From Melioribacteraceae bacterium (GTDB taxonomy: Bacteria > Bacteroidota > Ignavibacteria > Ignavibacteriales > Melioribacteraceae), in NCBI GenBank assembly GCA_016342755.1, contig JAEINS010000001.1, forward strand, positions 186,001 through 250,000: a stretch of 64,000 bases of DNA, given 5' to 3'. Under the pieces are notes generated by a model. The model was given only the letters and a program-made list of their open reading frames with translations, was not told where the DNA came from and did no database searches. This document shows, piece by piece, positions 6,997 to 63,914 of the stretch (positions within the stretch are counted from its first letter, which is position 1; each line of letters opens with the position of its first letter). Position numbers and translations under genes: made by a program.

Positions 6997-6998
6997 TC

Positions 6999-8093: not shown

Positions 8094-8127
8094 ACTAATT
8101 TTATAATTAAAATTAACGAGGAATATC

Positions 8128-45424: not shown

Positions 45425-46011
45425 GAAAGTTTAAAACCGAGGAACGATTAAACAAAATCATAAAAGTAGTAAAATCGAGACAACCCTCCTTAAATGTAGT
45501 TATAGAAAATGTTCATGATCCGCATAATGTGAGTGCAATTTTTAGAACATGTGACGCGGTCGGTGTTCCAAAAATTTCACTTCTTTATCATATTGAAGAT
45601 TTCCCTAAGATAAGTAATGTTACTTCTTCATCCGCGGTTAAATGGGTTGAAAAGGAAAGATTTAATAAAACAAAAGAATGTTTTGCTAAACTTAAAAAAG
45701 ACGGGTATAAAATTTACGCAAGTATGTTGTCAGAAAATGCAAAAAATATGTATGACATAGATTTCACAGAAAAAGTTGCAATTGTTTTAGGTAATGAAAA
45801 TCGTGGTGTTTCTGAGGAAGCTGCTGAATTAGCCCATGAATGCTTTTATATACCAATGCGCGGTATGATTCAGAGCTTAAATGTTTCTGTGGCAGCAGCG
45901 GTAACTCTATATGAAGCTCAAAGGCAAAGAGACGCAAAAGGTATGTACAATCAGTCTGAGCTTTCGGAAGAAAAATTAAATGAAGTTATAGATGAATGGT
46001 GTGATAAATGA
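45421..46011 (+). CDS. TrmH-family tRNA/rRNA 2'-O-methyltransferase
   Basis: SPOUT-fold methylase of 196 aa. Motif 1 NVHDPHNVSAIFRTCDAVG; motif 2 IVLGNENRGVSEEA; motif 3 IPMRGMIQSLNVSVAAAVTLYE with the knotted SAM site. Closest in layout to TrmH (Gm18 of tRNA), but RlmB-like alternatives cannot be excluded. Stop overlaps aroA start. Confidence 0.85.
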   Translation: MRKFKTEERLNKIIKVVKSRQPSLNVVIENVHDPHNVSAIFRTCDAVGVPKISLLYHIEDFPKISNVTSSSAVKWVEKERFNKTKECFAKLKKDGYKIYASMLSENAKNMYDIDFTEKVAIVLGNENRGVSEEAAELAHECFYIPMRGMIQSLNVSVAAAVTLYEAQRQRDAKGMYNQSELSEEKLNEVIDEWCDK

Positions 46012-47288
46012 TTAAAATTTTAGATAAAATTAAAAGTGTTAACGGAATTTTAAATTTACCCGGTGATAAATCTCTTTCACACAGAGCAGTAATGTTTTCT
46101 GCTATGTCTAAAGGGGAATCACATATCTATAATTATTTAGAATCTGCTGATATTAATTCTACAATAAATTGTTTTAAGCAACTCGGCTGCGAAATTGAAA
46201 AGTCAGAAAAAGAAATTATAGTAATTGGAAAGGGGATTAAGGGATTTACTAAACCAAGTGAAGATTTAGACTGCGGAAATTCAGGTACAACAGCCAGGTT
46301 AATTAGCGGGGTTTTAGCAGCGCAGAAATTTGAAACAAGATTAGTCGGGGATGCTTCTTTATCTAAACGACCAATGACAAGAGTTACAGAACCTCTTTCT
46401 GAAATGGGAGCAAAGTTTGAAACATCTGAAAACGGAACTCTTCCAATGACTATTATTCCCTCAAAAGAGTTTCATGCTATTGACTACAAACTTCCTGTAG
46501 CCAGCGCACAGGTTAAAAGTGCGGTATTACTAGCAGGATTGCATAATGAAAATATTACTACTGTAATTGAAAATGAAGCGACAAGAAATCATACTGAGAA
46601 CTTATTAAACCTTGAAGTTAAAGAAATTGAGGATGGAAGAATTATTTCAGTTTCAAGTAAAAACTATCCTAAACCATCTATATATAATGTGCCTTCTGAT
46701 ATTTCAAGCGCAGCATTTTTTATCGTTTTAGCTCTTATAACTAAAAATTCTGAACTGAGATTAAATAACGTTCTATTAAATGAAACTAGAAATGGTATTA
46801 TTCGTATTCTTATTAAGATGGGGGCCGATATAACTATTGAAAATGAATCGAATGAGAATGGTGAATTATCCGGAGATATTATTGTTAGATCTAGCAAGTT
46901 AAAAAATGTTGAAATTGAAAAAGATATTATAGCCAATATAATTGACGAAATTCCAATTCTTTCTGTAGCCGGTATTTTTGCTGAAGGGGAGTTTTGCGTT
47001 AGAAATGCAAGAGAACTTCGTGTTAAGGAAAGTGATCGTATTCGTTCGATGGTTAACAACTATAATCTGTTAGGGCTTGATACCATTGAATATGACGATG
47101 GATTTTCTGTCTCCGGTAAAGTATTAAACAGCGGCTGTACAGTTGAATGTTACCACGATCACAGAATTGCAATGGCGTTTGGAATTCTCTCTACCGTAAT
47201 TGAACAAGAAATTAAAATCGATGGTTTTGAATGTGTAGACATATCTAATCCAAAATTCCTTGAACAATTAGGCTCGATTAAAAATTAA
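46008..47288 (+). CDS. aroA: 3-phosphoshikimate 1-carboxyvinyltransferase (EPSP synthase)
   Basis: Shikimate-pathway enzyme of 426 aa. Seen: LPGDKSLSHRAVMFSAMS, DCGNSGTTARLISG, LSKRPMTRV, ELRVKESDRI and CYHDHRIAMAFGI. Last gene of the operon. No terminator hairpin was found after it, and the accessory region begins about 580 bases downstream. Confidence 0.95.
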   Translation: MIKILDKIKSVNGILNLPGDKSLSHRAVMFSAMSKGESHIYNYLESADINSTINCFKQLGCEIEKSEKEIIVIGKGIKGFTKPSEDLDCGNSGTTARLISGVLAAQKFETRLVGDASLSKRPMTRVTEPLSEMGAKFETSENGTLPMTIIPSKEFHAIDYKLPVASAQVKSAVLLAGLHNENITTVIENEATRNHTENLLNLEVKEIEDGRIISVSSKNYPKPSIYNVPSDISSAAFFIVLALITKNSELRLNNVLLNETRNGIIRILIKMGADITIENESNENGELSGDIIVRSSKLKNVEIEKDIIANIIDEIPILSVAGIFAEGEFCVRNARELRVKESDRIRSMVNNYNLLGLDTIEYDDGFSVSGKVLNSGCTVECYHDHRIAMAFGILSTVIEQEIKIDGFECVDISNPKFLEQLGSIKN

Positions 47289-47865
47289 TTACTCCCGTCT
47301 AAAGTTTATTCCTATTTCACCGTCAAGAACCACTTCTTTACGGAATGTAGACGTTTACTCAGTTCCAACCAAAAGGACATCGAGTGATTTCGCGAAGCGA
47401 AATTTTATCGAGATGCCGAAATCATAAATTGTATTTCCATTCAACCATTCATTCAATTTTCTTCGTTCTCAATCTTTTCAGGTAATTCTTATAGATGAGT
47501 AGAAAAGCGGGTAATTGATCTTTTTTGTTTTTTTTAAAAAAAACTTTCTTAACTCTTTTTATTTTATTAGTTTCGTACTGAATCTGGGTAACAAAAGCAT
47601 CGGCAAATAGATTTCTTATTTTATATATAAATTTTAGTTTTCAATATTTCAGAGCATTTATAATATTCGGTTTGTTATACTGAATTTTATTGATTGATTT
47701 TATAAATAGAGAGATGAGAGTTCCTTTTTATTGACTTAATTTTCTGATTATAAACTAAAACAGAACGTTTTTTTTAATAAGAATATTAATTAACAATTTT
47801 AAATAAGAGAAAAACCTATGAATAATATCTGGAATGCTATGCAGAACCATTCAGTATATTATTAG
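47289..47865. other. Gene-free spacer between aroA and the cassette region
   Basis: About 580 bases with no supported gene. At 47378-47411 there is a REP-like hairpin (ATTTCGC gaa GCGAAAT inside CATCGAG...CGAGATG) sharing the GAAGCGA core of the elements near 29.5 and 35.8 kb. A 15-codon ORF at 47818-47865 lacks support. I looked for an integrase gene or a recognisable attI here and found neither. Confidence 0.5.
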
Positions 47866-47866
47866 G

Positions 47867-48280
47867 TTAGGTAAGGAATAAAATGATAAAAAAACTCTTA
47901 ATAATCTCTATGCTCCTCAGCTCTACTAGCTACGGAGAAACGTTATTAAAATCTGTTGTAAACACAAAAATGACACACGTAGATGATACAAGATATTTCA
48001 CATTCATTAAGTTTAAAAATAATGAAATCGGATTAACTAAAGAAGAAGCCGAATCATTATTAAGGACAATTCCTAGTCATTTAAGAAAAAGAGAAAATAA
48101 TAAAGAAATTAACCAACCAAAAACAGTGAATGTGATTTTTGAAAAACGTTATGATAAAACACTCAAAAAACCTATTATAGAATTTGCTGGAACTATTTAT
48201 AATTTTGAATAAATAATGAAATACCTAACCATTAGATGCACCTGATACTCTCGTACCTCGAGCACAGGTGATCTAGGACG
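47867..48280 (+). mobile_element. Putative cassette A (414 bp)
   Basis: Starts at G|TTAGGTA and ends in the short attC at 48222-48286, whose R'' TACCTAAC is the exact complement of GTTAGGTA. The gene's ATG lies 16 bases inside the left end, as in typical cassettes. Carries only the 109-aa secreted protein. Confidence 0.55.
47883..48212 (+). CDS. Small secreted protein, hypothetical (109 aa)
   Basis: ATG with AAGGA upstream. Residues 1-18 form a signal peptide (LLIISMLLSSTSYG). The mature part is basic and polar with a central EEAESLLRTIPSHLRKRENN helix and a C-terminal beta-rich stretch. No homologue recognised. It is the only gene of putative cassette A, and its promoter would have to lie upstream of 47866. 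Confidence 0.7.
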   Translation: MIKKLLIISMLLSSTSYGETLLKSVVNTKMTHVDDTRYFTFIKFKNNEIGLTKEEAESLLRTIPSHLRKRENNKEINQPKTVNVIFEKRYDKTLKKPIIEFAGTIYNFE

Positions 48281-48286
48281 TTATAA
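48222..48286 (+). other. Short attC-like site (about 65 bp)
   Basis: R'' TACCTAAC, then L'' TAGATGCACCTG; L' CAGGTGATCTA, then R' GTTATAAG. The arms pair completely apart from one bulged G, the layout of classical 59-base elements. No T run follows, so a terminator explains it less well. R'' against R' pairs only in TAAC, as expected once cassettes have integrated. Confidence 0.55.
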
Positions 48287-48558
48287 GCTTTCCAAATTAG
48301 AAATTCAATAAGAACCAAATTCCGTATTGTTATAATATATGATGTGTGTAACGCTGTTGTAAAATTTTTGGTATCAGATTATATATATTACTAGAACTCA
48401 TCTTCTGTGTCGACAATAAAATATTATTCATGTAAAAACCGTCTTTCCATTCTCGCCCTCATCAGGTAAAATTCGACTTCAGCAACTAATTTCTGAAAAG
48501 ATTAAAACAACCCGGTATCATTACAAAGAGTTTATAAAAACATTTTTTTGGAGAGATA
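48287..48558. other. Upstream region of the efflux operon
   Basis: About 270 bases without a supported gene between the short attC and the TolC-like gene. GGAGAG precedes the first ATG. No exact TAnnTTTG promoter or convincing LytTR site was picked out by eye. Confidence 0.4.
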
Positions 48559-49926
48559 ATGAAGAGAATCTTTATCCTTTTTTTGTTCTTTCTGAGTATA
48601 ACTTCAGTTTTTGCTCAGAGCAATATCCTAGACAATTATATTAATGCAGCATTAGATAGCAATTTAACACTTCAGCAAAAGAAATATTCTTACCAAAAAA
48701 GCCTTGAAGCTTTAAAAGAAGCAAAACGAATGTTTTTACCAACAGTTTCGTTTGAAGCCCGCTATACAGTTGCTGAAGGTGGAAGGACGGTAACAATCCC
48801 GTTTGGAGATATGATGAATCCGGCTTATAATAACCTTAATTCAGTTAATCAGTCACTTAACATGCCTGTTTCACAATATCCTGAAATAGAAAATTACTCA
48901 TTGACTTTTGTTCGAAGTCCGGAGCAGGAAACAAAACTTGTCGTCGGTCTGCCGGTATTTAATTATGCAATAATTCAAAACCACAAAATCAAGAAAAGTC
49001 TCGTTGAGGTAGAAGAGATTAATGTTGAAATCTACAAACGAGAACTCGTTAAGGAAGTAAAAGAAGCTTATGTGAAATACTTGCAAGCAGAGCAAATATA
49101 TAATCTCTATAATAATGCGCTAAGCCTCGTAAATCAGAGCCTTAAATCAAGACAAAGTCTTTTTGCCAACGATAAGATTACTATTGACGAAGTATATGCT
49201 GCTAAAGCGCAGGTTAAACAGGTTGAAAAAGATCTTACAGAAGCAAATAAAAATAGAACAATGGCTGCTACCTGGTTTAATTTTCTTCTAAACAGGGATT
49301 TTGATGCTGAGATAGAAATAGAAGAATTAACAGTACCTGTAATTACCAATTATGATTTGGAAGATTTAAAGAAGGCTTCACTTTCCAATCGTGAGGAATT
49401 TACCCAACTGGGTAAGTTTATTGAAATACAGGAACACACTGTGAAGCTCGAAAAGGGAGAAGCTTTACCTAAAATTTCAATAGGTGCACAGTATGGTTTT
49501 CAGGGAGAAGAATATACCTTTAATGATGAAAGTCATTTTGCAGCGGTAGGTATAAACTTATCTTGGAGTTTGTTTACTTCAGGCCAAAGGCAATCGAAAA
49601 TTAGCCAGGCTCAAATAGAAAGGAAAATCCTCGAAAGTCGCAAACAGGAAATAGAACTTCAGATTCAAATGGAAGCTACCGAAACTTATTACTCCCTAAA
49701 AACAGCCCAAGAAGGGATTGAATTGGCCGAGGGGGAACTACAGAATTTCCGCCTTTCCTATTTGCTTGTTGAAAAAAAATACCAACAGGGAATTGTAAAT
49801 TATTTAGAATATTCAAGCGCCCTAAATAATAAAATGAACGCAGAAATTAAATTGATCTTAGCAAAATACACCTATCAGATTGAACAAATAAACCTCGAAC
49901 GGGAGATATCAGCTTATGAATTATAA
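48559..49926 (+). CDS. TolC-family outer-membrane efflux protein
   Basis: Protein of 455 aa with a signal peptide (cut near FAQ) and two repeats of the outer-membrane efflux fold: long helices such as KEVKEAYVKYLQAEQIYNLYNNAL and ETYYSLKTAQEGIELAEGEL, with QYGFQGE-type strands between. First gene of a three-part pump with the next two genes. Overlaps the adaptor gene by 11 bases. Confidence 0.88.
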   Translation: MKRIFILFLFFLSITSVFAQSNILDNYINAALDSNLTLQQKKYSYQKSLEALKEAKRMFLPTVSFEARYTVAEGGRTVTIPFGDMMNPAYNNLNSVNQSLNMPVSQYPEIENYSLTFVRSPEQETKLVVGLPVFNYAIIQNHKIKKSLVEVEEINVEIYKRELVKEVKEAYVKYLQAEQIYNLYNNALSLVNQSLKSRQSLFANDKITIDEVYAAKAQVKQVEKDLTEANKNRTMAATWFNFLLNRDFDAEIEIEELTVPVITNYDLEDLKKASLSNREEFTQLGKFIEIQEHTVKLEKGEALPKISIGAQYGFQGEEYTFNDESHFAAVGINLSWSLFTSGQRQSKISQAQIERKILESRKQEIELQIQMEATETYYSLKTAQEGIELAEGELQNFRLSYLLVEKKYQQGIVNYLEYSSALNNKMNAEIKLILAKYTYQIEQINLEREISAYEL

Positions 49927-50983
49927 TAAATGTAAACTAGTTATGAGCAATAAAATCATTAGAAACAGCTTAGTTGCTATTTCTTTAGCTCTAATTGTGG
50001 GATGCTCTGAAAATGATAGTAGAGAAATAGCAAGCAAAATCCCTACAGTGCGTACCGAGGATGTTAAAGCAGTTGAATATTCCGACCGCATAAGGACAAC
50101 TGGCAGGTTGGCATTCAACAACGAATACAAAATGTCATTTAAAACTTCGGGTATTGTTAAAACGGTTTTTGTGAAAGATGGACAATATGCAAAAAAAGGT
50201 ATGCTATTGGCATCTCTAAAGCTAGACGAGATTGAGTCTAAAGTTAAGCAGGCTGAATTTTCTTTTGAAAAAGCAAAACGAGACTTTGACAGGGCAACAG
50301 CTTTGTATGCTGACAGTGTAGCTACTTTGGAACAACTGCAGAATGCCAAAAGCCAGCTGCAAAATGCTGAGATGAACTTACAAGCGGCACAGTTCAATCT
50401 AAAACATTCCCAAATAGTTGCTCCGGCAAATGGAATCATTCAAAAAATACTGGTAAAGGAAAATGAAATTACAGGTGCCGGCAATCCCATTATTATTTTT
50501 GGTGCAGAAAACCAAGGGAAAGTTCTTGTTGCTAATGTTTCTGATGTGGATGTAGTTAAAATAAAAATTGACGATAAAACTTCACTTCATTTTGATGCTT
50601 GGCGCGAAACTGTTTTCAATGGTAAAGTTTTAGAAATTGCAGGAATGGCAAGCCCCTCAACCGGAACCTATGAAATAAAAATTCAGGTAAGTGATGCTGA
50701 TAATAAATTAAAACCCGGTTTTATCGGGAGTGCAACCATTACTTCATCAAAAGTAAGCCACCAGATTGAAATCCCCATTGAAGGATTGGTGCAAGCCAAC
50801 AACAAAACAGCAGTCGTTTATAAAGTTGAAAATGAATTGGCGATTAAACAGGATGTTCATGTAGCTAAAATTTTAAACAAAAAGTTGCTCATCTCTAGTG
50901 GTCTTTCTGAAAATGACAAAATAATAGTCGAAGGATTAGGAGAACTAAAAGGCGACAGCATTTCTGTAAAATCAATTCATTAA
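49916..50983 (+). CDS. RND periplasmic adaptor (membrane fusion protein)
   Basis: Protein of 355 aa. A lipoprotein signal ends ALIVGC. Order: half-lipoyl (FKTSGIVKTVFVKDGQYAKKGMLLASL), alpha-hairpin (about 100-150), second half-lipoyl (IVAPANGIIQKILVKENEITGAG), then beta-barrel domains. Start kept at 49916 because GGGAGA precedes it; an in-frame ATG at 49943 also gives a good signal peptide. Bridges the TolC-like and RND proteins. Confidence 0.88.
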   Translation: MNYNKCKLVMSNKIIRNSLVAISLALIVGCSENDSREIASKIPTVRTEDVKAVEYSDRIRTTGRLAFNNEYKMSFKTSGIVKTVFVKDGQYAKKGMLLASLKLDEIESKVKQAEFSFEKAKRDFDRATALYADSVATLEQLQNAKSQLQNAEMNLQAAQFNLKHSQIVAPANGIIQKILVKENEITGAGNPIIIFGAENQGKVLVANVSDVDVVKIKIDDKTSLHFDAWRETVFNGKVLEIAGMASPSTGTYEIKIQVSDADNKLKPGFIGSATITSSKVSHQIEIPIEGLVQANNKTAVVYKVENELAIKQDVHVAKILNKKLLISSGLSENDKIIVEGLGELKGDSISVKSIH

Positions 50984-50996
50984 AAGCGGAAAAATT

Positions 50997-53900
50997 ATGA
51001 ATAATTTACCAAAATTTTCAATCAATAATTATCAGTTCGTACTGATAGTCTTCGTAGTAACATTAATATGGGGTATGAATTCGTTCTTAACCATGCCTCG
51101 TACAGAAGACCCACCTGCAGCACAACCTGGAGCAATAGTTACTGTGATCTACCCCGGAGCCTCACCCAGCGATATGGAGGAGTTAATTATAAACCCCATT
51201 GAAGAGGAAGTAAATGGCTTAGAACTCATTTCAGAAATAAAATCATCAGCCGGCAATGGCTATGCTTTCATAAATGTGAGTTTTGATTATGGCAATTACA
51301 ATTTCGACGACAAATACGATGACGTTGTTCAGGCGGTTAATGAAGTAAAAACCGAACTGCCATCAGGAATTGGCGATATAAACTTTCGCAAAAAAACAAC
51401 AACCGATACCAAGATATTACAATTAGCACTTAGTTCAGAAACGGTTGAATTTAGCGACATGAGAATCTGGGCTGAAAGCCTTGAGAAAAAACTGGAACAA
51501 GTTAAGGGCATTAAAACGGTTGATATCATTGCGCTCCCGGAACAGCAGGTAAAAATACTTATGCAGCCCGATAAAATGGTAAACATGGGTATTGGTGTTT
51601 CCGATATCGAAAATGGGATTAAGGCCAACAACCAAAACATACCGGGTGGTGAACTAGTAATGGGCGAAAACAGTTTTAATATAAAAACAAGTGGTTCGTA
51701 CGAGTCGTTGGATGAAATCAGAAATACGGTAGTTGGCTCAGTTGAAGGTCAGTTGGTTTACCTGAAAGATATTGCCGATGTTGAAATTGACTACGAAGAA
51801 AATAATTACCTGGCAGGTTTTAACGGTACCCGCAGTATTTTCTTGACTGCCGAACAAAAAAGCGGAACCAATGTACTGGCTATTGTTGATGAAGCGAAAG
51901 TAATTATTGATGACTTTGAAGCGTCGATGCCGGAGAATATACATATCCATTATGTGCATAATCAAGCCGAAAATGTTGAGAAAAGTGTCAATGGATTTTT
52001 AAATAACCTTTTTCAGGGAATCGTTTTAGTAGGTTTTGCCATTATGCTGGCCATAGGTTTTAAATCGAGCCTGGTAATAATGCTGGCTATACCTTCATCG
52101 ATACTTATCGGATTAGGTTTTGTTGACCTGGCAGGCTTCGGTCTGCAAAGTGTATCTATTGCCGCATTGGTTATTGCCCTGGGTTTGTTGGTTGATAATT
52201 CAATTGTTGTCATTGAAAATACCGAACGCTATCTGAAACAAGGGATGAGCAGTAAAGAAGCAGCCATAAAAGGTACAAAACAAGTTGCTTACCCAATCAT
52301 CAGTTCTACCTTAACCACATTGGCTGCTTTTATCCCTATTGCCATGCTTTCTGATGCTGCCGGAGATTTTATTCAAAGTATGCCGGTAACGGTAGTTGCC
52401 ACATTAACGGCATCGGTTGTTCTTGCCCTTAGCGTATCACCTTTGTTGATGGCTATTTTATTTAAACGTAAAAAAGAAACCCAACATAGTGAGAATTGGT
52501 TGCAGAAAAAGTTGGCAAGTTTTATATCAGGACCCTACCGTAAGATTCTGCATTTCTCGCTTACGAACACCAAAACGGTGCTGTTGGCTTCATTTGTGCT
52601 GTTTCTGTCGGCAGTGATGGTTTTTAAATTCTTTGTTGGCAGCAGCTTTTTTCCAAAAGCCGAGAAACCATTATTAATGGTTCAGGCAACACTACCTCAA
52701 AATAAAACTATTAAAGAAACTGAAAAGGTGGCCCATTATATCGAGAGTGTATTGGATACCATACCTGAAATTAAACAATATGCAAGCAATGTTGGAAATG
52801 GAAATCCAAAAGTTCATTTCAATCTTTTCCCAAAAGATAATGCGAAAAATTTTACCGAGTTTTTTGTGGAATTAAAGGAGTATGACCTCAAAGCTTTTGA
52901 GCAATTTGTATCTCGTTTGCGAAACACATTCAGTGATTATTCAAAAGCCGAAATTGTAATAAAAGAATTTCAGAGCGGACAGGTCATTCAATATCCGGTA
53001 CAAATTATTTTAAATGGTGACAATATCGAAAACCTGATGAAAGCAGCCGATGATGTGGAGGCAATAATGAAAAACCATCCGGGTATTATTAATGTTGAAA
53101 ATGAACTGGATGGAATGCGCACAGACCTTCATGTAATAATCAATAAAGACAAGGCTTCAATGCTTGGTGTTGCCGTATCGGCTATTGATAAAACCATAAG
53201 AACAGCCATGAACGGAACAACGGTATCAAAATTCAATGCACTCGATGGTAAGGAATACGATATACAATTAAGCTTGCCGTTGGATGGTAAAGCAAAAATA
53301 GAGGATTTTGATAAAATCTTTATAAAATCGATGCTTGGAAAGCAAATACCACTTAGCCAGTTAGCACGAGTTGAATTTGTTAAAAACCCAAACAAAATCA
53401 CCCACTACAACCTTAGCAGAAGTGCAACAGTAGGTAGTGATGTAGCAAGCGGATACAATACGGCTAAAGTTACTAAACAAATTGAAGCACAAATAAAAGC
53501 ATATAAAATGCCTCTTGGAGTTAGTTATATAGTTGCAGGAGAATCGGCAAAACAGAATAAATCATTTGGAGGACTTGGAGCTGCAGCGGTTATTGCAATG
53601 TTGATAATTTTTGCCATTCTCGTTTTACAGTTTCATTCGTTTATGCAGCCATTTATCATTTTTACATCCATACCTTTTGCACTTACAGGCTCATTTTATG
53701 CTCTGTTTCTATCGGGTTTCGATTTTTCATTCACAGCTTTTATCGGTGCCATTGCGCTAATAGGTATAGCAGTTAACGATGCCATTGTTTTTATTGATTT
53801 TGCCAATGAAGAACGCAAACAAGGGAAAAACATTTATGAAGCCCTCATGGAAACAGGAAAGCTTCGTTTTGTGCCAATTTTAATTACCTCTGTTACAACA

Positions 53901-54059
53901 ATTGGCGGATTACTTCCATTAACGCTTGGAGGAGGCTTGTTTTGGGGGCCTTTAGGTTGGACAATCATAGGGGGCTTATCGTTATCAACGCTGTTGACGC
54001 TGGTTATAGTTCCCGTTTTATATAAAGTAATGATTAAAGAAAAAAGTTTAATTAAATAG
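50997..54059 (+). CDS. RND-family efflux pump, inner-membrane permease
   Basis: AcrB/HAE1-type transporter of 1020 aa. TM1, a large periplasmic loop (SYPGASP-like VIYPGASPSDMEE), TM2-6 with the proton-relay Asp in ALGLLVDNSIVVIEN, then the second half with GAIALIGIAVNDAIVFIDFA. No heavy-metal signature was recognised, so drugs or other amphiphiles are as likely as metals. Central part of the three-gene pump. Confidence 0.92.
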   Translation: MNNLPKFSINNYQFVLIVFVVTLIWGMNSFLTMPRTEDPPAAQPGAIVTVIYPGASPSDMEELIINPIEEEVNGLELISEIKSSAGNGYAFINVSFDYGNYNFDDKYDDVVQAVNEVKTELPSGIGDINFRKKTTTDTKILQLALSSETVEFSDMRIWAESLEKKLEQVKGIKTVDIIALPEQQVKILMQPDKMVNMGIGVSDIENGIKANNQNIPGGELVMGENSFNIKTSGSYESLDEIRNTVVGSVEGQLVYLKDIADVEIDYEENNYLAGFNGTRSIFLTAEQKSGTNVLAIVDEAKVIIDDFEASMPENIHIHYVHNQAENVEKSVNGFLNNLFQGIVLVGFAIMLAIGFKSSLVIMLAIPSSILIGLGFVDLAGFGLQSVSIAALVIALGLLVDNSIVVIENTERYLKQGMSSKEAAIKGTKQVAYPIISSTLTTLAAFIPIAMLSDAAGDFIQSMPVTVVATLTASVVLALSVSPLLMAILFKRKKETQHSENWLQKKLASFISGPYRKILHFSLTNTKTVLLASFVLFLSAVMVFKFFVGSSFFPKAEKPLLMVQATLPQNKTIKETEKVAHYIESVLDTIPEIKQYASNVGNGNPKVHFNLFPKDNAKNFTEFFVELKEYDLKAFEQFVSRLRNTFSDYSKAEIVIKEFQSGQVIQYPVQIILNGDNIENLMKAADDVEAIMKNHPGIINVENELDGMRTDLHVIINKDKASMLGVAVSAIDKTIRTAMNGTTVSKFNALDGKEYDIQLSLPLDGKAKIEDFDKIFIKSMLGKQIPLSQLARVEFVKNPNKITHYNLSRSATVGSDVASGYNTAKVTKQIEAQIKAYKMPLGVSYIVAGESAKQNKSFGGLGAAAVIAMLIIFAILVLQFHSFMQPFIIFTSIPFALTGSFYALFLSGFDFSFTAFIGAIALIGIAVNDAIVFIDFANEERKQGKNIYEALMETGKLRFVPILITSVTTIGGLLPLTLGGGLFWGPLGWTIIGGLSLSTLLTLVIVPVLYKVMIKEKSLIK

Positions 54060-54067
54060 AGGATAGT

Positions 54068-54430
54068 ATGAAAAGTTTAAGAAATATTATAGTAGTAGTC
54101 ATTATCAGCTTTCTTAGTTCAAATGTTTTTGCTCAATCAAATTTATGCGGTAAATGGATTGTCGGTGAACAAAACACAGTAATAAAAATAGAACAAGACA
54201 ATGGCATTTATAGTGGAAAAATTATCTCCTCTGATAATCCCAAAGCAAAAATTGGAAAGCTGATGGTTAAAGAAGTCAAAAAAATAAAAAGTAAATGGGA
54301 AGGGAAAGTATATTCACCAAAACGTAAAGAGTGGTACGATGCTGAATTTACAGTAGAAAGTAACAAGCTAAATATTAAAATATCTGTTGGTTTTTACAGT
54401 AAAATTGTTGAATGGATTAGAGTTAAATAG
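54068..54430 (+). CDS. DUF2147-like secreted protein
   Basis: Protein of 120 aa with a signal peptide (ending FAQ). The mature part begins LCGKWIVGEQNTVIKIEQDNGIYSG and ends VGFYSKIVEWIRVK, the start and end signatures of DUF2147 calycin-like proteins. Sits 8 bases after the pump gene. Role unknown; possibly a lipophilic-ligand binder. Confidence 0.6.
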   Translation: MKSLRNIIVVVIISFLSSNVFAQSNLCGKWIVGEQNTVIKIEQDNGIYSGKIISSDNPKAKIGKLMVKEVKKIKSKWEGKVYSPKRKEWYDAEFTVESNKLNIKISVGFYSKIVEWIRVK

Positions 54431-54438
54431 GATTTTTA

Positions 54439-54630
54439 ATGGAAGAAGACATATATGGTATAACATACGCATGCCCTCATGGCAAACGAAAAACTGAATG
54501 CCCCTTAATAGAAATTGAGCATCTTTCTCTAAAAGAAAAGTTACATTGGATTAACCACCTACAACCAGATCAAAAGAGACAGATTATAAATTTTCATCTT
54601 GACTGTTCAGTTAAAAGAGAATTTAAATAA
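54439..54630 (+). CDS. Small Cys/His protein (63 aa), hypothetical
   Basis: Soluble protein of 63 aa with conserved-looking Cys and His: YACPHGKRKTECPL near the N-terminus and FHLDC near the C-terminus, spacing that could hold one metal ion. I recall similar short proteins in Bacteroidota but know no function. Lies between the DUF2147-like and barrel genes in the efflux operon. Confidence 0.6.
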   Translation: MEEDIYGITYACPHGKRKTECPLIEIEHLSLKEKLHWINHLQPDQKRQIINFHLDCSVKREFK

Positions 54631-54640
54631 AATTTGAATA

Positions 54641-55555
54641 ATGAATATGAATTGTAAAAAAAATATATTTATTAGTTGTACAGTTGTTTTAATAGCCTTT
54701 ATTACTCTGTCACAAAATAGTAATGCGCAGGATTTCGAATTAGCCGGAATTAAATATGCATATTATCCCAAAGCAGCAATAAAAGATGTTTCGGAAAATA
54801 GAGAAATTTCGTTTCATGAATTTAATGCTTTTGTAAACATACCTATGAAATTTAAAAATCAAAAAACAGGGTTGGTACATGGATTTGGATATGGCTTTGT
54901 AGAAGCTGCATTCAATAATTCGTCACCAGATGAAGCAAGCAAACCCAAGAAAAATCTACATGCGTTTTATTATCAATTAAGGTTGGTACATAAATGGAAC
55001 GAAAAGTGGAGCTTATTGGTTGCATTGAAACCTACAATCGCCTCAGACTTTGAACAAAAGTTAAGTTCGGAAGATCTTATTTTTCAAGGAGCTGTTATTG
55101 CAACAAGAACAATTAACAACAAATTAAAAATAGGTGCCGGTGTTGTGTATGGTGCACAGTGGGGCAGCCCCAGAGTGTTGCCGGTTGTTAGCATTAATTA
55201 CAAAAACGATAGGCACAGTTTGAATACACTTTTACCCATGGATATCAAATATACCTATTCGCTATTTCCTGAAGAAAAATTAAAACTTGGTTTGAGGTAT
55301 ACCCGAAATGGAGCTAATTTTAATGTTTCAGGCTCTGACATGGCCGAGATTGATAAAATAAATTATTCTCGGGCAAATATCGGAGTGCTTGCTAATTATA
55401 AATTAACAACAATACTCCGTATAGAAGCATTCGGGGGAATAAGTACAGGACGAAAATACAGGTTTGTAGATTTTGATAATAATGAGCATGATTTTGATTC
55501 CAAAGCAGCTCCATTTTTTAGTGTCGGGATTGTATTTGTTTCGCCCCAAATATAA
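54641..55555 (+). CDS. Outer-membrane beta-barrel protein (DUF6268-like)
   Basis: Protein of 304 aa with a signal peptide (cut near NAQ), alternating strands throughout and a terminal FFSVGIVFVSPQI. The segment NKLKIGAGVVYGAQWGSPRVLPVVSINY resembles what I associate with DUF6268. Perhaps a porin-like partner of the pump; not assignable from sequence. Confidence 0.55.
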   Translation: MNMNCKKNIFISCTVVLIAFITLSQNSNAQDFELAGIKYAYYPKAAIKDVSENREISFHEFNAFVNIPMKFKNQKTGLVHGFGYGFVEAAFNNSSPDEASKPKKNLHAFYYQLRLVHKWNEKWSLLVALKPTIASDFEQKLSSEDLIFQGAVIATRTINNKLKIGAGVVYGAQWGSPRVLPVVSINYKNDRHSLNTLLPMDIKYTYSLFPEEKLKLGLRYTRNGANFNVSGSDMAEIDKINYSRANIGVLANYKLTTILRIEAFGGISTGRKYRFVDFDNNEHDFDSKAAPFFSVGIVFVSPQI

Positions 55556-55614
55556 TTAATGTAAAAAGTTGATGTGGTTTACAAAATCATTCAATAAATT
55601 GCGAATATTGATAG

Positions 55615-56658
55615 ATGAAAAATAGAAACGATAAAAATATTAGAAATACCATAATTCGTGTAGTTTTGGTTTCATTATATGCAATGCTTGTAATGAAATT
55701 AGTGAAATACACAATGCCTGATGATATTGAGATTGTCGGACATTTTCCAAGAGGATTGTTCGTAGTTTTTTATATTTTACTTTCCAATTTGAACACAGAA
55801 GGAAATCTTATATTTAACAGCCTTCTCAATAAAAAACTTCCTTGGTTTTATTTTCCCCAAAAACGCTTGCTCACACAATTGTCATTCATTTTGATGTGGA
55901 CAATAGTTACAATCGGAATTCCATTTACTATCTGGTATTTTTATAACGGACGTTCTTTTACCTATCCTCCATTTTCAGTAGCTGCCTTTGTTAGTTCAAT
56001 AATACTATTATTGGTTGTTTTAGGTATATCTCTGACAATTAATTTCTTTAAGCATTGGCAAATTTCTTTGCTGGATGCTGAACATTATAAGCAAGAAAAA
56101 CTCAAAGCCGATTACCGGGTTCTGCAAAATCAGGTAAACCCGCATTTTTTGTTTAACAGTCTGAATGTAATAGTCTCAGAAATAAAACATAATCCCAATT
56201 CTGCGGTTGAATTTACGCGCAGATTATCAAAAGTATACCGTTATGTATTGCAAAGTAAAAATCATGATTTAATTACCTTAAGTAAAGAACTTGAATTTAT
56301 TGATTCGTTTATTTTTTTGCATAAAGTCAGAATTGGCAATGCTTTGGAGTATTCGGTAAAGATTTCGGCAGAAACATTAGAAATGCAATTACCCCCGTTA
56401 ACGCTCCAAATTTTAATTGAGAATGCAATTAAACACAATATAGCTAATAAAGAAAATGTTCTAAAAATTTCTATTGCAAGTGGCGAGGATAATAAGTTGA
56501 TTGTAAGTAATAACCTGCAAGCTATTGAAAATGCAGACTCGACATATACTGGATTATCAAACTTGAGTAAACGATTTGAATTGCTTAAAAAAGATGGATT
56601 TACCTATGGAGAACAAGAAGAAAAATTTGTTGTAACCATTCCTTTAATTGAGGAATAA
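55615..56658 (+). CDS. LytS-type sensor histidine kinase
   Basis: Protein of 347 aa. Four transmembrane helices (about 10-150), then the His_kinase domain: NQVNPHFLFNSLNVI with the phosphorylated His, and LTLQILIENAIKHNI (N box). The ATPase G-box is short (YTGLSNLSKRFELL). Its stop is 1 base from the regulator's ATG. Forms a two-component system with the next gene; likely controls the efflux operon. Confidence 0.85.
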   Translation: MKNRNDKNIRNTIIRVVLVSLYAMLVMKLVKYTMPDDIEIVGHFPRGLFVVFYILLSNLNTEGNLIFNSLLNKKLPWFYFPQKRLLTQLSFILMWTIVTIGIPFTIWYFYNGRSFTYPPFSVAAFVSSIILLLVVLGISLTINFFKHWQISLLDAEHYKQEKLKADYRVLQNQVNPHFLFNSLNVIVSEIKHNPNSAVEFTRRLSKVYRYVLQSKNHDLITLSKELEFIDSFIFLHKVRIGNALEYSVKISAETLEMQLPPLTLQILIENAIKHNIANKENVLKISIASGEDNKLIVSNNLQAIENADSTYTGLSNLSKRFELLKKDGFTYGEQEEKFVVTIPLIEE

Positions 56659-56659
56659 G

Positions 56660-57436
56660 ATGGCCCTAAAAGTATTAATTATAGAAGATGAAATTCCAGC
56701 ACAACGTTTGTTGAAAGAAACCATACAAGAGCTGGATTATGAAACTGAAGTTATTGGCTGCCTGAATAGTATTAAGTCAGCCGTTGAATGGTTTCAAAAT
56801 AACAGCCATCCTGAAATAGTATTAATGGATATTCAACTTTCCGACGGAACCAGCTTTGAAATTTTTGAGAAGGTTCGGATTGAGAGTATGATAATTTTTA
56901 CTACCGCTTATGATGAATATGCTGTTCAGGCTTTCAAAGTAAACAGTCTTGATTATTTGTTAAAACCTATAGACAGGGAAGAACTTCAAGCGGCATTTGA
57001 AAAATTTCAGAATTACAGTAAATCATTTGTAAAGCAAAAAAATAGCGGAATAGAATATTCAGAAATAGCATCTCTAATTAAAAATGAAGTCAAAGATTAC
57101 AGAAAACGATTTCTTATTCAATCGAATGAAACATTCTACCAGATTCCTGTGGAGAAAATCGCTTTTTTTAATAGCATTCAAAAAATAACGTTTGCTGTTA
57201 CATTCGAAAACAGTAAATATCCTATTTCATATTCTCTTGAAAATTTAAAAGAACAATTAAATCCGGAACATTTTTTTAAGGTAAACAGGCAGTTAATTAT
57301 TAATATTTCTGCTATTAAAAAGATCCATTCTTACTTCCAGGGAAAGTTGGTAATAGAGACGAATTCGAAGCATACCGAAAAAATTATTGTTGGAAAAGAT
57401 AAAGCCGCCGATTTTAAAAGATGGCTTGATAGATAA
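56660..57436 (+). CDS. LytTR-family response regulator
   Basis: Receiver domain about 1-120 (LIIEDEIPAQRLL, VLMDIQLSDG with the phospho-Asp, KVNSLDYLLKPI) and a LytTR DNA-binding domain about 155-258 (RFLIQSNETFYQIPVEKIAFF, HFFKVNRQLIINISAI). Start taken at the ATG at 56660 (258 aa), not the upstream in-frame TTG. Last gene before the attC at 57.5 kb. Confidence 0.87.
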   Translation: MALKVLIIEDEIPAQRLLKETIQELDYETEVIGCLNSIKSAVEWFQNNSHPEIVLMDIQLSDGTSFEIFEKVRIESMIIFTTAYDEYAVQAFKVNSLDYLLKPIDREELQAAFEKFQNYSKSFVKQKNSGIEYSEIASLIKNEVKDYRKRFLIQSNETFYQIPVEKIAFFNSIQKITFAVTFENSKYPISYSLENLKEQLNPEHFFKVNRQLIINISAIKKIHSYFQGKLVIETNSKHTEKIIVGKDKAADFKRWLDR

Positions 57437-57491
57437 ATATTCAATGGGTGAAGATTTACTATGCCCTTTGTAAATCTTAAAATTAGAAAAC

Positions 57492-57681
57492 GCTTATAAC
57501 AAGTTGCTCAAGGCGACAGCTTTTACGATTTCGGCATTTGTGTAATTCTAATTTTTGTTCTACCGTTTCGGCTTTGTCGTTTGGTTTTGTTTATAAATGA
57601 AAGTTTTTAGTTATTAAAAAGTTGTTTAATCAATACGGTATAGTTGTTATGGGCTGCGCCTTAGCAACCACGCCGTTATAC
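57492..57681 (+). other. attC site 1
   Basis: R'' GCTTATAAC, L'' GTTGCTCAAGGCGACAGC; L' GCTGCGCCTTAGCAAC, R' GTTATAC. The arms pair as GTTGCT(c)AAGGCG(a)CAGC, with bulged C and A in the left arm. About 190 bp long, of the long VCR-like class. Nearly identical in design to attC site 2. Confidence 0.8.
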
Positions 57682-57720
57682 GCTTAGTAAGTAATATTTA
57701 ATCATCATCATAGAGGAATT

Positions 57721-58806
57721 ATGTCTGGGCAAATTAGCTTACAAGATATTGAATCATTTTCATCAACATTAGGAGAATGTATTAAATCTTCATTTGAAAA
57801 AAAGGATGAAGTGCTTGAAACACTTAATTTGGTTAAAAAAGAAGCAAACTTTACAAAAGATGGAGAAAAAACATTAAACCGCTTAATTAAAGAATTAAGC
57901 AGTGATATTGAAGTTTCAGATTTATTAGATGATTCCACATTTGTAGAATTGATTTCACTTCATTGTCTAATAAAATTGTCTGAGAAGGTGGAAGCAACAA
58001 TTAAATACAAATTAGGATCTACAAAATTTCCAGACATCACAATTGAAGATAAAGAAAAGAACAGATACGGTTTCGAAATTAAGCGAGTTGGAGGTGATGC
58101 CATACTGGGCAATAGCTCAACACAAACAGTAAAAAATATTGATACATTTAAAAAAATATATGCCATATCATTTTTTAACGATGGCGATACTATCCATATT
58201 TCCAACTATGAAGATTTGATATTTGATATAGAGGTTGATCACAACCCAAGGTTTCGCCTAAAAATGCAACTCGAAGACAAAAGTAATTTCAAAGAAATCT
58301 TTTCAGAAGGGAATCTGATAGATTATTATTCATTAGATCAAGAATCTCGTGAGAAGCTAGTAGCAAATTATTTAAGAAAGAAATACGCCGATAATGAAGA
58401 TCGGTGGTTTTTGGGTCAATCTACAACAATAATCAATGAATTTTTGGAACAAATTCAAAATATTAAGCTTGATCGTGAAAAAATAAGAACTTTTGTATTT
58501 TGCAATTACCCCGCTATATTCACTTTTTCAAATTATCACGATTTGAGAAAGGTAATAATGAAAAAATATAAATACATTGGTGCAGTGAAGGATATTTTTA
58601 CTGCTGGTGGTCAAGAAAACGGTTTCCCTAGAATTTATGTTCATCTGATAACATTACTCCCCCAAATTAATTCCGAACTTGAGAAAAGCAGTATCAACAA
58701 ATCAGCTTGGATCAAGGAAATTAAAGACTCTGTAATAACCGCTAGCGATTTATCTCCTGCCAAGCAGAAAGAATTATTCGAACTGGTGGACAAACATATT
58801 ACTTGA
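57721..58806 (+). CDS. Putative type II restriction endonuclease (PD-(D/E)XK)
   Basis: Protein of 361 aa with a PD-(D/E)XK active site: P104-D105, then E119-I-K121 (FPDITIEDKE...YGFEIKRVGG). No membrane segments. I do not recognise the specificity family. It precedes the C5-methyltransferase by 68 bases and shares its cassette, which is the main support for a restriction role. The start has AGAGGAATT upstream. Confidence 0.72.
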   Translation: MSGQISLQDIESFSSTLGECIKSSFEKKDEVLETLNLVKKEANFTKDGEKTLNRLIKELSSDIEVSDLLDDSTFVELISLHCLIKLSEKVEATIKYKLGSTKFPDITIEDKEKNRYGFEIKRVGGDAILGNSSTQTVKNIDTFKKIYAISFFNDGDTIHISNYEDLIFDIEVDHNPRFRLKMQLEDKSNFKEIFSEGNLIDYYSLDQESREKLVANYLRKKYADNEDRWFLGQSTTIINEFLEQIQNIKLDREKIRTFVFCNYPAIFTFSNYHDLRKVIMKKYKYIGAVKDIFTAGGQENGFPRIYVHLITLLPQINSELEKSSINKSAWIKEIKDSVITASDLSPAKQKELFELVDKHIT

Positions 58807-58832
58807 CAATGATTTCTGAAATAATAATTTTG
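58803..58832 (+). promoter_or_regulatory. Promoter of the methyltransferase gene
   Basis: TTGACA (58803-58808), 16 bases, then TAATTTTG (58825-58832), an exact TAnnTTTG. The -35 side touches the stop of the endonuclease gene. The -7 element is overlapped by the left arm of the inverted repeat at 58829. Confidence 0.6.
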
Positions 58833-58865
58833 TGTTTACAATAATAATGTATTTGTAAACACAAA
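58829..58865 (+). promoter_or_regulatory. Operator-like inverted repeat before the methyltransferase
   Basis: Perfect 13-bp arms TTTGTGTTTACAA (58829-58841) and TTGTAAACACAAA (58853-58865), 11 bases apart, between the promoter and the ATG at 58875. No T run follows, so a terminator is unlikely. Placement over the -7 element fits a repressor site, most simply for the RHH domain of the methyltransferase itself. Confidence 0.65.
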
Positions 58866-58874
58866 GGAAACAAG

Positions 58875-60014
58875 ATGGGAAGAAAGCCAGATCATAATTC
58901 GATATCAAGAAACGCAAAGCGACAAACATATCATATTCAGAATGATTTAATTGAGAAAATTAATTCTTTCTGTGACTCAAAAAGCCTAAATAAATCCAGC
59001 TTTGTAAATGAGCTGTTCTATTCATATTTCGCTAAAAAATCTGATAGTGACAACTCTAAATATAAAGTGGTTTCCTTATTTTCTGGTTGTGGCGGAATGG
59101 ATTTAGGATTTCAAGGTGATTTCACCTATTTAGGGAAAAACTATCCTGCAAGGAATTTTGAAATAGTTTTTGCCAACGATATTATGGGAGCAGCTTGTAA
59201 AACATATAAAGAAAATTTCAAACATACACCCCATATTGGTGATATAAAAGAATACCTCGACTTTAATGGGATTATTCCTGATTGCGACGTAGTTATTGGT
59301 GGTTTTCCTTGTCAAGATTTTAGTTTAGCCGGTAAACGCAATGGACTAAATTCAGAACGTGGAAGATTATATGAACAAATGAAACGGGTTATTGCGCTTA
59401 AGAGACCCAAAATATTTATAGCTGAGAATGTTAAAGGATTGTCAATTGGGGATGCTCTTGAAACAATAAAAAGGGACTTTAGCAATATAGAACCAAAATA
59501 TGAGATAACTCATTTTTTAAAAATGGCTGCTGATTTTGGAGTACCTCAGACGAGAGAAAGAATTTTTATTGTTGGTACAAGAAAAGAATATGATATATCA
59601 TTTGTTCCTCCTACAGAAACTCATTCGGCTGATGGCAATGAGGACAGAGAGCTATGGATTTCATCCAAACAAGCTATTGGTGATTTGGAATCACTAGAAA
59701 ATGATGTCCCAAATCATTCTCAATATTCGAAAGCCCGGAACTATGGCTCTCATCTACAAGGCAACAAACCTATCAAGGCAGATTATCCTAGTCCTACTAT
59801 TAGAGCCGAACACCACGGGAATATAGAGTTTCACTATTGTCTAGATCGAAGATTGACAGTAAGAGAGTGCGCAAGAATACAGTCTTTCCCGGATAACTTT
59901 GTTTTTCATAGTAGTGCCTCAAAAAACTATGTTGTTATTGGGAATGCTGTTCCTCCAGTCTTAGGATGGAATATTGCTAAAAGTGTTGAGGATTATCTTG
60001 ATAAATTGAAGTAA
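58875..60014 (+). CDS. DNA (cytosine-5) methyltransferase with N-terminal RHH-like domain
   Basis: Protein of 379 aa. Residues about 15-55 (RQTYHIQNDLIEKINSFCD, NKSSFVNELFYSYF) look like a ribbon-helix-helix DNA-binding domain. The catalytic core has all main motifs: SLFSGCGGMDLGF, GGFPCQDF (catalytic C146), FIAENVKGL, QTRERIFIVG, RLTVRECARIQSFP and GNAVPP. It would protect the cassette's recognition site. The extra domain plus the palindrome upstream suggest that it represses its own gene. Confidence 0.88.
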   Translation: MGRKPDHNSISRNAKRQTYHIQNDLIEKINSFCDSKSLNKSSFVNELFYSYFAKKSDSDNSKYKVVSLFSGCGGMDLGFQGDFTYLGKNYPARNFEIVFANDIMGAACKTYKENFKHTPHIGDIKEYLDFNGIIPDCDVVIGGFPCQDFSLAGKRNGLNSERGRLYEQMKRVIALKRPKIFIAENVKGLSIGDALETIKRDFSNIEPKYEITHFLKMAADFGVPQTRERIFIVGTRKEYDISFVPPTETHSADGNEDRELWISSKQAIGDLESLENDVPNHSQYSKARNYGSHLQGNKPIKADYPSPTIRAEHHGNIEFHYCLDRRLTVRECARIQSFPDNFVFHSSASKNYVVIGNAVPPVLGWNIAKSVEDYLDKLK

Positions 60015-60020
60015 TCTGTT

Positions 60021-60446
60021 TTATCTAGATTGATAAATTTTGAGTATTTTTAGAGCGATTTGGGCACAATTCATTTTTATTTCACTCTCCCAAAATCGCA
60101 AAACTAACCAGTTTTGTTGTTTCAATTTTTTGTTCACTATTTTATCACGACGTATGTTTCTTATGATTTTATCTTGCCAAAATTTTGAATATCTGGCTAA
60201 TTCTTCTTCAAGAGTATTTAAGCCTCTTATTTTCCAATTATTACCGTGCCAAAAATCTCCATCAACAAAGATCGCTATACGTTTCTTTACAAATACAAAA
60301 TCCGGCTTACCTTCGATTTTATATTGCTTTCTATACCTAAGTCCTAACACAAATAATTCTTTCCCCAACAATTTTTCTGGCTTGGTATTAGCGGAAGGTA
60401 TTTTAGACATAATTTTTGAGGTAATATTTTTATCTCTTTTTTTCAT
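60021..60446 (-). CDS. Vsr-like patch-repair endonuclease
   Basis: Protein of 141 aa with the Vsr layout: MSKIPSANTKPEKLLGKELF, GLRYRKQYKIEGKPDFVF, IAIFVDGDFWHGNNW, DKIIRNIRRDKIVNKKL, WLVLRFWESEI. The zinc cysteine usual in GCFWH is Asp here. Such enzymes nick T:G mismatches left by deaminated 5-methylcytosine and accompany C5-methylases. The start is the ATG at 60446; an in-frame TTG at 60470 would lie inside the attC. Convergent with the methylase gene, 6 bases apart. Confidence 0.8.
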   Translation of the reverse strand: MKKRDKNITSKIMSKIPSANTKPEKLLGKELFVLGLRYRKQYKIEGKPDFVFVKKRIAIFVDGDFWHGNNWKIRGLNTLEEELARYSKFWQDKIIRNIRRDKIVNKKLKQQNWLVLRFWESEIKMNCAQIALKILKIYQSR

Positions 60447-60449
60447 AAT

Positions 60450-60639
60450 AGCGTATAACAAGTTGCTCAAGGCGACAGCGTTTTCGCACTAGGCATTTAT
60501 GTAAATATAAAATTTGTTTTACCGTTTTGGCTTTAGTGTTAAAATGTATTTGTAAATGTAATTATTTTGCAAATAAAAGTTTATTTATCAATTTGGTATT
60601 GTTGTTATGGGCTGCGCCTTAGCAACATCGCCGTTATGT
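60450..60639 (+). other. attC site 2
   Basis: R'' AGCGTATAAC, L'' GTTGCTCAAGGCGACAGC; L' GCTGCGCCTTAGCAAC, R' GTTATGT. Both arms are identical to attC site 1, with the same bulged C and A, and the interior is also similar. Confidence 0.8.
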
Positions 60640-61209
60640 AGCGGAGGATAAAAATGGGATATCCAATAAAAACAAGTCAAGATGATTGGTTGAACAAGGC
60701 CATTGAACTTTTTTATAATAGAGTTTCCTTTGATTTAATTGATGATGGTAATTTTGATCTAAATTTAGATTCTGAAATTCTAAAAGTATTCGCTAAAACT
60801 ACTTTAAAAGAAAGTCAAATTATTTGGAGATCTATTTTTTATGTTTTCGCATTAGTTTGTGCTTACTTATTCGTAATTAGTTTTTCGGTTATATATGGTA
60901 GAGAAATTGCACAAATATTGTCAGCTCTCGGCGTGGTTGCATGCATAGCAATACCATCTTTAATGTTGAAAAGAAACAAATCTCCTAAAATTATTGAAGA
61001 GGATGGATTAATAAAAATCACATTTAAATAATGCTACATAACCCACGCATCAAAGCGACCGCAGTTACGCCCGGTCTTTTCCAATTTTTATGCGTGTAAA
61101 AAGTAGTTGTGGTAAATAAGCAGTTTAGAATAGATAGGTTTTAAATTAATTTAGGTTGTAGCGTTTGCGTCTCGTAGCTCGAAAACTGCGGCGCTTTATG
61201 CATCAGCCG
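60634..61209 (+). mobile_element. Cassette D (576 bp)
   Basis: Left end G|TTATGTAGC; its complement GCTACATAAC is exactly the R'' region of attC site 3. One gene, with GGAGG 12 bases into the cassette and the ATG at 60654. Confidence 0.72.
60654..61031 (+). CDS. Cassette-borne membrane protein, hypothetical (125 aa)
   Basis: Protein of 125 aa. A soluble acidic N-terminus (about 1-60), two transmembrane helices (about 62-85 and 89-106) and a short charged tail. Strong Shine-Dalgarno (GGAGG). No family recognised. Sole gene of its cassette. Confidence 0.7.
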   Translation: MGYPIKTSQDDWLNKAIELFYNRVSFDLIDDGNFDLNLDSEILKVFAKTTLKESQIIWRSIFYVFALVCAYLFVISFSVIYGREIAQILSALGVVACIAIPSLMLKRNKSPKIIEEDGLIKITFK

Positions 61210-61215
61210 TTATAT
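61033..61215 (+). other. attC site 3
   Basis: R'' GCTACATAAC, L'' GCATCAAAGCGACCGCAGTT; L' AACTGCGGCGCTTTATGC, R' GTTATAT. The arms pair as GCAT(c)AAAGCG(a)CCGCAGTT, again with bulged C and A at corresponding places. A second attC subtype, shared with site 4. Confidence 0.78.
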
Positions 61216-61695
61216 TGCTAAAAGCGAATTAATGGATACCGAGTTTTATGGGTAAAATAATTGTGGTTGCATTAATATTATTTGTCTTAGCCTTAATTGC
61301 AATTTCATTCTACTTTGCCCGAAGATACGCGTTAATTTGTAAAAAGTGTGATTCTAGAGCGACAAAAAGAACTGGCAATACTCGCAAAATTGAAAGGAAC
61401 AGGCGTGCATTGATTGCATCTCCTCTTCCTTCAAAAAGTTTTGAGTATAAATGTGAAAACTGTGGCTATATTTTCTGGAGTTCTATTGAAGGAATTTATG
61501 ATATTTATTAACGCAACATAACCCACGCATCAAAGCGACCGCAGTTATGCTCGGTTTTTTCGTGTTTTGAAAGTGGTTTATTGTTTGTAGTTTTTGAAAA
61601 GTAGTTCAAGTTAGTAAGTTGAATTTTTAATAAATAAATTTAGGCGTATGCGTTAAGTGAGTTCGATAAACTGCGGACGCTTTATGCATCAGCCG
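61210..61695 (+). mobile_element. Cassette E (486 bp)
   Basis: Left end G|TTATATTGC; its complement GCAATATAAC matches the R'' region GCAACATAAC of attC site 4 with one mismatch. One gene (61248). Confidence 0.68.
61248..61511 (+). CDS. Cassette-borne small membrane protein with zinc ribbon (87 aa)
   Basis: Protein of 87 aa. One N-terminal transmembrane helix (about 3-23) then a zinc-ribbon pattern CKKCDS...KCENCGY with a basic linker between. Just upstream, an 8-codon ORF (ATG 61233, stop TAA) overlaps the start ATG, which might couple translation. No family recognised. Confidence 0.68.
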   Translation: MGKIIVVALILFVLALIAISFYFARRYALICKKCDSRATKRTGNTRKIERNRRALIASPLPSKSFEYKCENCGYIFWSSIEGIYDIY

Positions 61696-61701
61696 TTAGG
61701 C
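61513..61701 (+). other. attC site 4
   Basis: R'' GCAACATAAC, L'' GCATCAAAGCGACCGCAGTT; L' AACTGCGGACGCTTTATGC, R' GTTAGGC, which is the canonical GTTRRRY. L'' is identical to that of attC site 3. Confidence 0.82.
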
Positions 61702-61711
61702 AACTAAAATA

Positions 61712-62650: not shown

Positions 62651-62684
62651 TCAATAATCAAGCAACTAAATTAAAGGAGTTATT

Positions 62685-63710: not shown

Positions 63711-63722
63711 ATTAACTAAAAG

Positions 63723-63914
63723 GTTGCCTAACAAGTGCATCAAGCCGACAGCGTTTTCGCATTCGGCATTTTTAAATTTTTCAAGGTAGTTGCTCCGTTT
63801 TGGGTAACTTGTTCGGCTTTGTTCTACTAAACAAAATTTTTTAAATCATTAATGTTTGTGCTTCTATTCGGTAGCCTTGTAATGGGCTGCGGGTTAAGCA
63901 CAACGCCGTTATAC
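63723..63914 (+). other. attC site 5
   Basis: R'' GTTGCCTAAC (GCCTAAC is canonical), L'' GTGCATCAAGCCGACAGC; L' GCTGCGGGTTAAGCAC, R' GTTATAC. The arms pair less perfectly than the others, but the bulged C and A fall at the same places. Confidence 0.75.

Follow-up and report, generated by a model that had tools for sequence, protein, structure and literature searches.

A 64,000-nucleotide stretch of the genome of a Melioribacteraceae bacterium (the window; positions 186001–250000 of contig C12) contains an array of integron gene cassettes, the second of which (c2) carries a tripartite RND efflux pump together with a LytS/LytTR two-component system. In the usual description, a gene cassette is short, holds one gene and lacks a promoter. 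Judged by its sequence, c2 is a real operon-scale integron cassette, and it is very likely that the whole block constitutes one genuine cassette holding a horizontally acquired operon, with its own conserved leader and a single attC at the 3′ end. A preliminary description of this DNA had proposed that the pump and its regulators form a single oversized cassette, and this was borne out by a unique match between the ends of the unit, the lack of space for an attC within it, foreign codon usage and, most of all, a second such cassette in an unrelated genome.

The left end of c2 is a G|TTATAAGC junction at 48280/48281, which coincides with the end of a small cassette (c1) that itself starts at a copy of attI. 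The attC at the right end terminates at G57675 and has its R″, GCTTATAAC, at 57492–57500. This R″ is complementary at nine of nine positions to the 5′ end of the same cassette, GTTATAAGC, and each of the two 9-mers, both found as first described, is present a single time on the window's + strand. The rule that the R″ of a cassette's attC complements the 5′ end of that same cassette held for c1–c6, c8 and c9, and also for c7 despite an IS110 interruption. Across 13 cassettes (nine in the C12 array, one on contig C53 and three in the related genome L016), own-end agreement was 76 of 78 variable positions, while 100,000 shuffles averaged 34.6 and none exceeded 62. Thus, c2 combines a G|TT start with an attC that is complementary, through its R″, to the 5′ end of the cassette, and lies in an array that starts at attI. 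The host genome (4.73 Mb) is a draft of 56 contigs and attCs are repeats, which might suggest that a short-read misjoin at these repeats placed a foreign operon in the array. However, such a misjoin would destroy the observed end match, the attC most similar in sequence (that of c3) is just 79 % identical, and genome completeness is 100 % with 0.48 % contamination, making misassembly extremely improbable.

Further copies of the c2 attC family are present on C12 and C53. The bottom strand of the c2 attC folds into R-box and L stems, the latter with two isolated bases left extrahelical. Bottom-strand folding with R and L stems and unpaired bases is the pattern of IntI substrates. The z-score for the whole site was only −2.2, a weak value due to a long AT-rich loop. 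The eight coding regions of c2 are separated by gaps of −11, 13, 8, 8, 10, 59 and 1 bp, and the noncoding flanks amount to 278 bp before the first gene and 55 bp after the last. With gaps of at most 59 bp, an internal attC of either the ~190-bp array type or the ~66-bp c1 type cannot fit, so that c2 has exactly one attC and, as previously noted, none inside. This conclusion rests on the gene gaps because the hairpin scan for internal attCs was insufficiently specific (scores of 20–41 for real sites, against 32.5 for the highest-scoring chance site of the block); a first scan by arm alignment overlooked most true sites. The hairpin scan returned only weak AAC…GTT hairpins within the block, which could be taken as remnants of several ancestral cassettes fused through loss of internal attCs, an alternative raised in the preliminary description. 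These hairpins all lie in coding sequence, however, and come from a scan that discriminates poorly, whereas the genes overlap or abut with the spacing of an operon. Gene order is also the same in two related operons (see below), and many Bacteroidota genomes have the core of outer-membrane efflux protein (OEP), membrane-fusion protein (MFP) and RND permease as an operon. Fusion is therefore very unlikely to explain the block.

The OEP, MFP and RND permease genes of c2 are intact and in order (Table 1). The permease matches the AcrB-type family over its full length, and its nearest solved sequences are 6vej and MexK. Its scores fall under the cut-offs of all named NCBIfam permease subfamilies, including the named multidrug ones, so that a role as a multidrug pump is putative. 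The LytS-like kinase and LytTR regulator genes are encoded together, and a TTCGACTTCA-type tandem repeat lies upstream of the operon. This repeat recurs upstream of both related operons (at 7479 in L015, and at 3542 and 3562 in L016) and is predicted to be the LytTR operator/promoter of the efflux operon, which would place the pump under the putative control of its neighbouring regulator.

To find relatives of the operon, one genome per species was searched, and two close relatives emerged. One is in an uncultured Owenweeksia metagenome-assembled genome (MAG; L016), with a permease 79.7 % identical to that of c2, and the other in a Bacteroidales MAG (L015), with a permease 84.3 % identical but containing an in-frame stop. 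In L016 the operon forms one attC-bounded cassette from G3465 to G12891 (9,426 bp) whose ends, GTTGTGTGC and GCACACAAC, match at nine of nine positions, so an orthologous block does occur elsewhere with attC flanks. Two ordinary cassettes, of 894 and 1,358 bp, lie before it, again with 9/9 end matches. The L016 attC belongs to a sequence family other than that of c2, has more copies in the L016 genome and folds strongly (z −8.4). In addition, an extra open reading frame (ORF) and another presumed copy of the LytTR operator were observed between the permease and DUF2147 genes of L016 (9144–9606). Gene order is kept in both relatives, although the DUF6268 gene is present in L016 and absent from L015, and the 63-aa ORF had no tblastn match in either. 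Apart from these two, the permeases in relatives of the host, L015 and L016 were at most 48 % identical and lacked the DUF/kinase/regulator part, so that no relative was found with the same block at the same place without an attC. Plasmid records contained only distant permeases (identity of 35 % or less).

In L015 the operon splits a MORN-type gene (7207–7394 and 15597–16004, minus strand). On its right flank is a long hairpin (~15510–15595), of which there are further copies in the L015 genome (L100, L101). The ends of the L015 copy are of ambiguous type: nine bases of the 5′ flank are complementary to the hairpin, yet there is no AAC/GTT core. The split gene implies that the operon has been inserted as a unit elsewhere at least once, and c2 might likewise have arisen when transposition or homologous recombination placed the operon in an ordinary small cassette with matching ends, in which case the concordance of the ends would survive. 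Against this, only the 278 bp and 55 bp flanks lie outside the coding operon, the block has no residual cassette gene, flanking repeat or annotated insertion sequence (IS) or transposase, and the operon of L016 is, independently, packed equally tightly between cassette ends. Such an insertion is unlikely and, as a matter of history, has little bearing on the present state of c2, since the unit has cassette ends either way.

Permease identity among the host, L015 and L016 was 78–84 %. In comparison, RpoB identity was 58.3 % between host and L015, 60.6 % between host and L016 and 69.7 % for the third pair. Permease identity so far above that of RpoB indicates that the operon was transferred horizontally. 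Codon usage of the block, a comparison suggested at the outset, differed from that of host genes (codon-frequency distance of 0.102) and was nearer to that of the L015 block (0.054); the L015 block was itself at a distance of 0.102 from the genes of its own host. By these sequence comparisons, the efflux operon is a horizontal acquisition.

An intact integron integrase is encoded on C53 (318 aa; 454 bits, cut-off 265), beside a sequence to which the C12 attI is 88 % identical over 85 bp; the last ~50 bases before the crossover, from AACCTATGAATAATATCTGG on, are identical between the two copies. The C12 array, in which all cassettes have one orientation and which runs from attI to ~69,010 in window coordinates, is a sedentary chromosomal integron array. 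As the most likely mechanism, the C53 integrase would act on this array from a distance, folding the bottom strand of the c2 attC and cutting at G|TT, and the 9.4-kb unit would have been integrated as one circle and could in principle be excised likewise. Excision and integration of c2 by this enzyme are thus putative. The leader would supply a regulated promoter of its own and, if this prediction holds, c2 need not depend on an integron promoter and could function wherever it is inserted.

Several observations weigh against interpreting c2 as a cassette moved by this integron. The integrase gene is not beside the array: no match to the integrase profile TIGR02249 was found on C12 (459 kb), and an intI adjoining attI and array, as in a complete integron, is therefore lacking there. 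The short attC of c1, immediately left of the efflux cassette, is of another type than the other attCs. The third close copy of the operon, in L015, lies outside any recognisable attC array. The orthologues have no alignable sequence in common at the cassette ends, so that common descent applies to the operon and only possibly to the cassette. No empty site or circular form of c2 was observed; the relatives searched included none from the host genus. Finally, excision frequency is known to fall for very large cassettes in some attC combinations, as tested only to ~3 kb (PMC5371416).

Table 1. Features of the cassette array and of a second large cassette of the same genome (window coordinates unless another sequence is named)
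Feature	Position	Strand	Details
aroA	46008–47288		upstream of attI copy
attI copy	47786–47866	+	no adjoining integrase gene; crossover G at 47866
Cassette 1 (c1)	47867–48280	+	414 bp; 109-aa ORF 47883–48212; short attC ~48222–48287
Cassette 2 (c2), efflux cassette	48281–57675	+	9,395 bp; second in array
c2 leader	48281–48558	+	tandem TTCGACTTCA-type repeat, second copy at 48472
c2 outer-membrane efflux protein (TolC/OEP family)	48559–49926	+	PF02321 E 5.7e-52
c2 periplasmic adaptor, RND membrane-fusion protein	49916–50983	+	TIGR01730 190 bits, above cut-off; PF16576
c2 RND permease, 1020 aa, intact	50997–54059	+	PF00873 E 2.6e-209
c2 DUF2147 protein, secreted	54068–54430	+	PF09917 E 3.6e-7
c2 63-aa ORF with cysteines, MEEDIYGITYACPHG...	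54439–54630	+	translation, coordinates
c2 DUF6268 outer-membrane-type protein	54641–55555	+	PF19783 E 5.7e-23
c2 LytS-like sensor histidine kinase	55615–56658	+	PF06580 E 1.1e-23
c2 LytTR response regulator	56660–57436	+	PF00072, PF04397
c2 attC with R′ of next cassette	57492–57683	+	same family as the genome's other long attCs
Cassette 3 (c3)	57676–60633	+	attC 60451–60633; 10/10 end match
Cassette 4 (c4)	60634–61209	+	10/10 end match
Cassette 5 (c5)	61210–61695	+	9/10 end match
Cassette 6 (c6)	61696–63908	+	312-aa ORF and TPR protein (TPR family matches); 10/10 end match
Cassette 7 (c7)	beyond window		attC broken by IS110-family element, L009 ~6747–8450
Cassette 8 (c8)	beyond window		carries PemK/MazF-type toxin gene
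Cassette 9 (c9), last	L009 9617–10009 (window ~68617–69009)		R″ AGGTATAAC matches; remaining attC missing
Second large cassette	L011 (C53) 10493 down to 4628	−	5,866 bp; 8-base end match

The remaining parts of the array are summarized in Table 1. The region of the C12 attI (47289–47866) can be read as a duplicated or decapitated integron platform. In c1, the 5′ end GTTAGGTA and the R″ TACCTAAC are complementary at eight of eight positions, the attC hairpin has a z-score of −5.5 and the 109-aa ORF has no Pfam match. The sequence of its ~66-bp attC is unrelated to the ~190-bp attCs in the rest of the array, which suggests that c1 is a foreign cassette and the newest arrival beside attI. Cassette c3 encodes a 361-aa protein, a C5-cytosine methylase and, on the opposite strand, a Vsr endonuclease; the 361-aa protein had no family match and is possibly the partner restriction endonuclease of the methylase. 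The array end appears truncated at c9 (near 69,010), and 3′ of it lie a chromosomal bshC-like gene and then argH/argG. An IS110-family element occurs twice directly behind an attC R″ (..AAC|CAGTTATTCCGG), once in the attC of c7 and once at L011 ~1832 to ~110, as if this element targets attC; target selection by IS1111/IS110 elements has reportedly been studied and would offer a comparison.

On C53, the first cassette beside the integrase has a 10/10 end match and is followed by the 5,866-bp cassette, which contains genes for a SIMPL protein, a 312-aa protein, an ECF-type sigma factor, a FecR protein and a TonB-type receptor. This indicates that large multi-gene cassettes are not a one-off in the host genome. 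Surveys commonly join attCs into one array when the distance between them is less than 4 kb (PMC9668308); by this criterion the C12 array would be split at c2, and large cassettes should be undercounted. Given c2 and its L016 counterpart, integrons are probably able to carry entire operons, which would escape standard surveys. In the literature searched, mostly without subscription papers, no report was found of an RND operon, or of a ~9-kb or other multi-kilobase operon, as a cassette. A broader proposal, to which slightly less than even confidence is attached, is that integrons of Bacteroidota-type bacteria regularly carry 5–10 kb cassettes for complete sensing-plus-transport systems, largely unseen in surveys under the 4-kb rule. 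The attC families of the Ignavibacteria-like host and the Owenweeksia MAG differ, and under this proposal the efflux operon would have turned into a cassette, or exchanged its attC, on two or more occasions.

A complete pump with its regulator in two distant hosts of different classes, with perfect cassette ends in both, implies that a single integron event can be enough to spread a ready-made, regulated trait. For large cassettes in existing genomes, the R″/5′ end rule allows an immediate test, and the presence of the same operon with two attC families is relevant to the unsettled matter of cassette formation.

In many respects the system resembles sedentary chromosomal integrons and their cassettes, with attI, G|TT junctions, R″/R′ complementarity, bottom-strand attC hairpins with extrahelical bases, an intact IntI in the genome and accessory genes arrayed in a single orientation. 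Integrons are already known in Ignavibacteriae and a few Bacteroidetes (PMC9024848). Unlike the usual cassettes of sedentary chromosomal integrons, however, c2 is 9.4 kb in size, with about eight genes and its own two-component regulator. The median coding sequence length is 362 bp in sedentary and 575 bp in mobile integrons, a cassette is termed very large from 1.5 kb upwards (PMC5371416), and the longest cassette of a curated mobile-integron set was 1,860 bp (PMC3087341). The array is also similar to a CALIN (cluster of attC sites lacking integrase; PMC9024848), as its 459-kb contig has no integrase gene, but differs in the retention of a near-identical attI and in the intact integrase that the genome encodes on a separate contig. 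Like RND tripartite efflux operons, whose nearest solved permease sequences are 6vej and MexK, c2 has a single operon for OEP, adaptor and permease; unlike them, it adds DUF2147 and DUF6268 genes and a LytS/LytTR pair, and is carried as a cassette.

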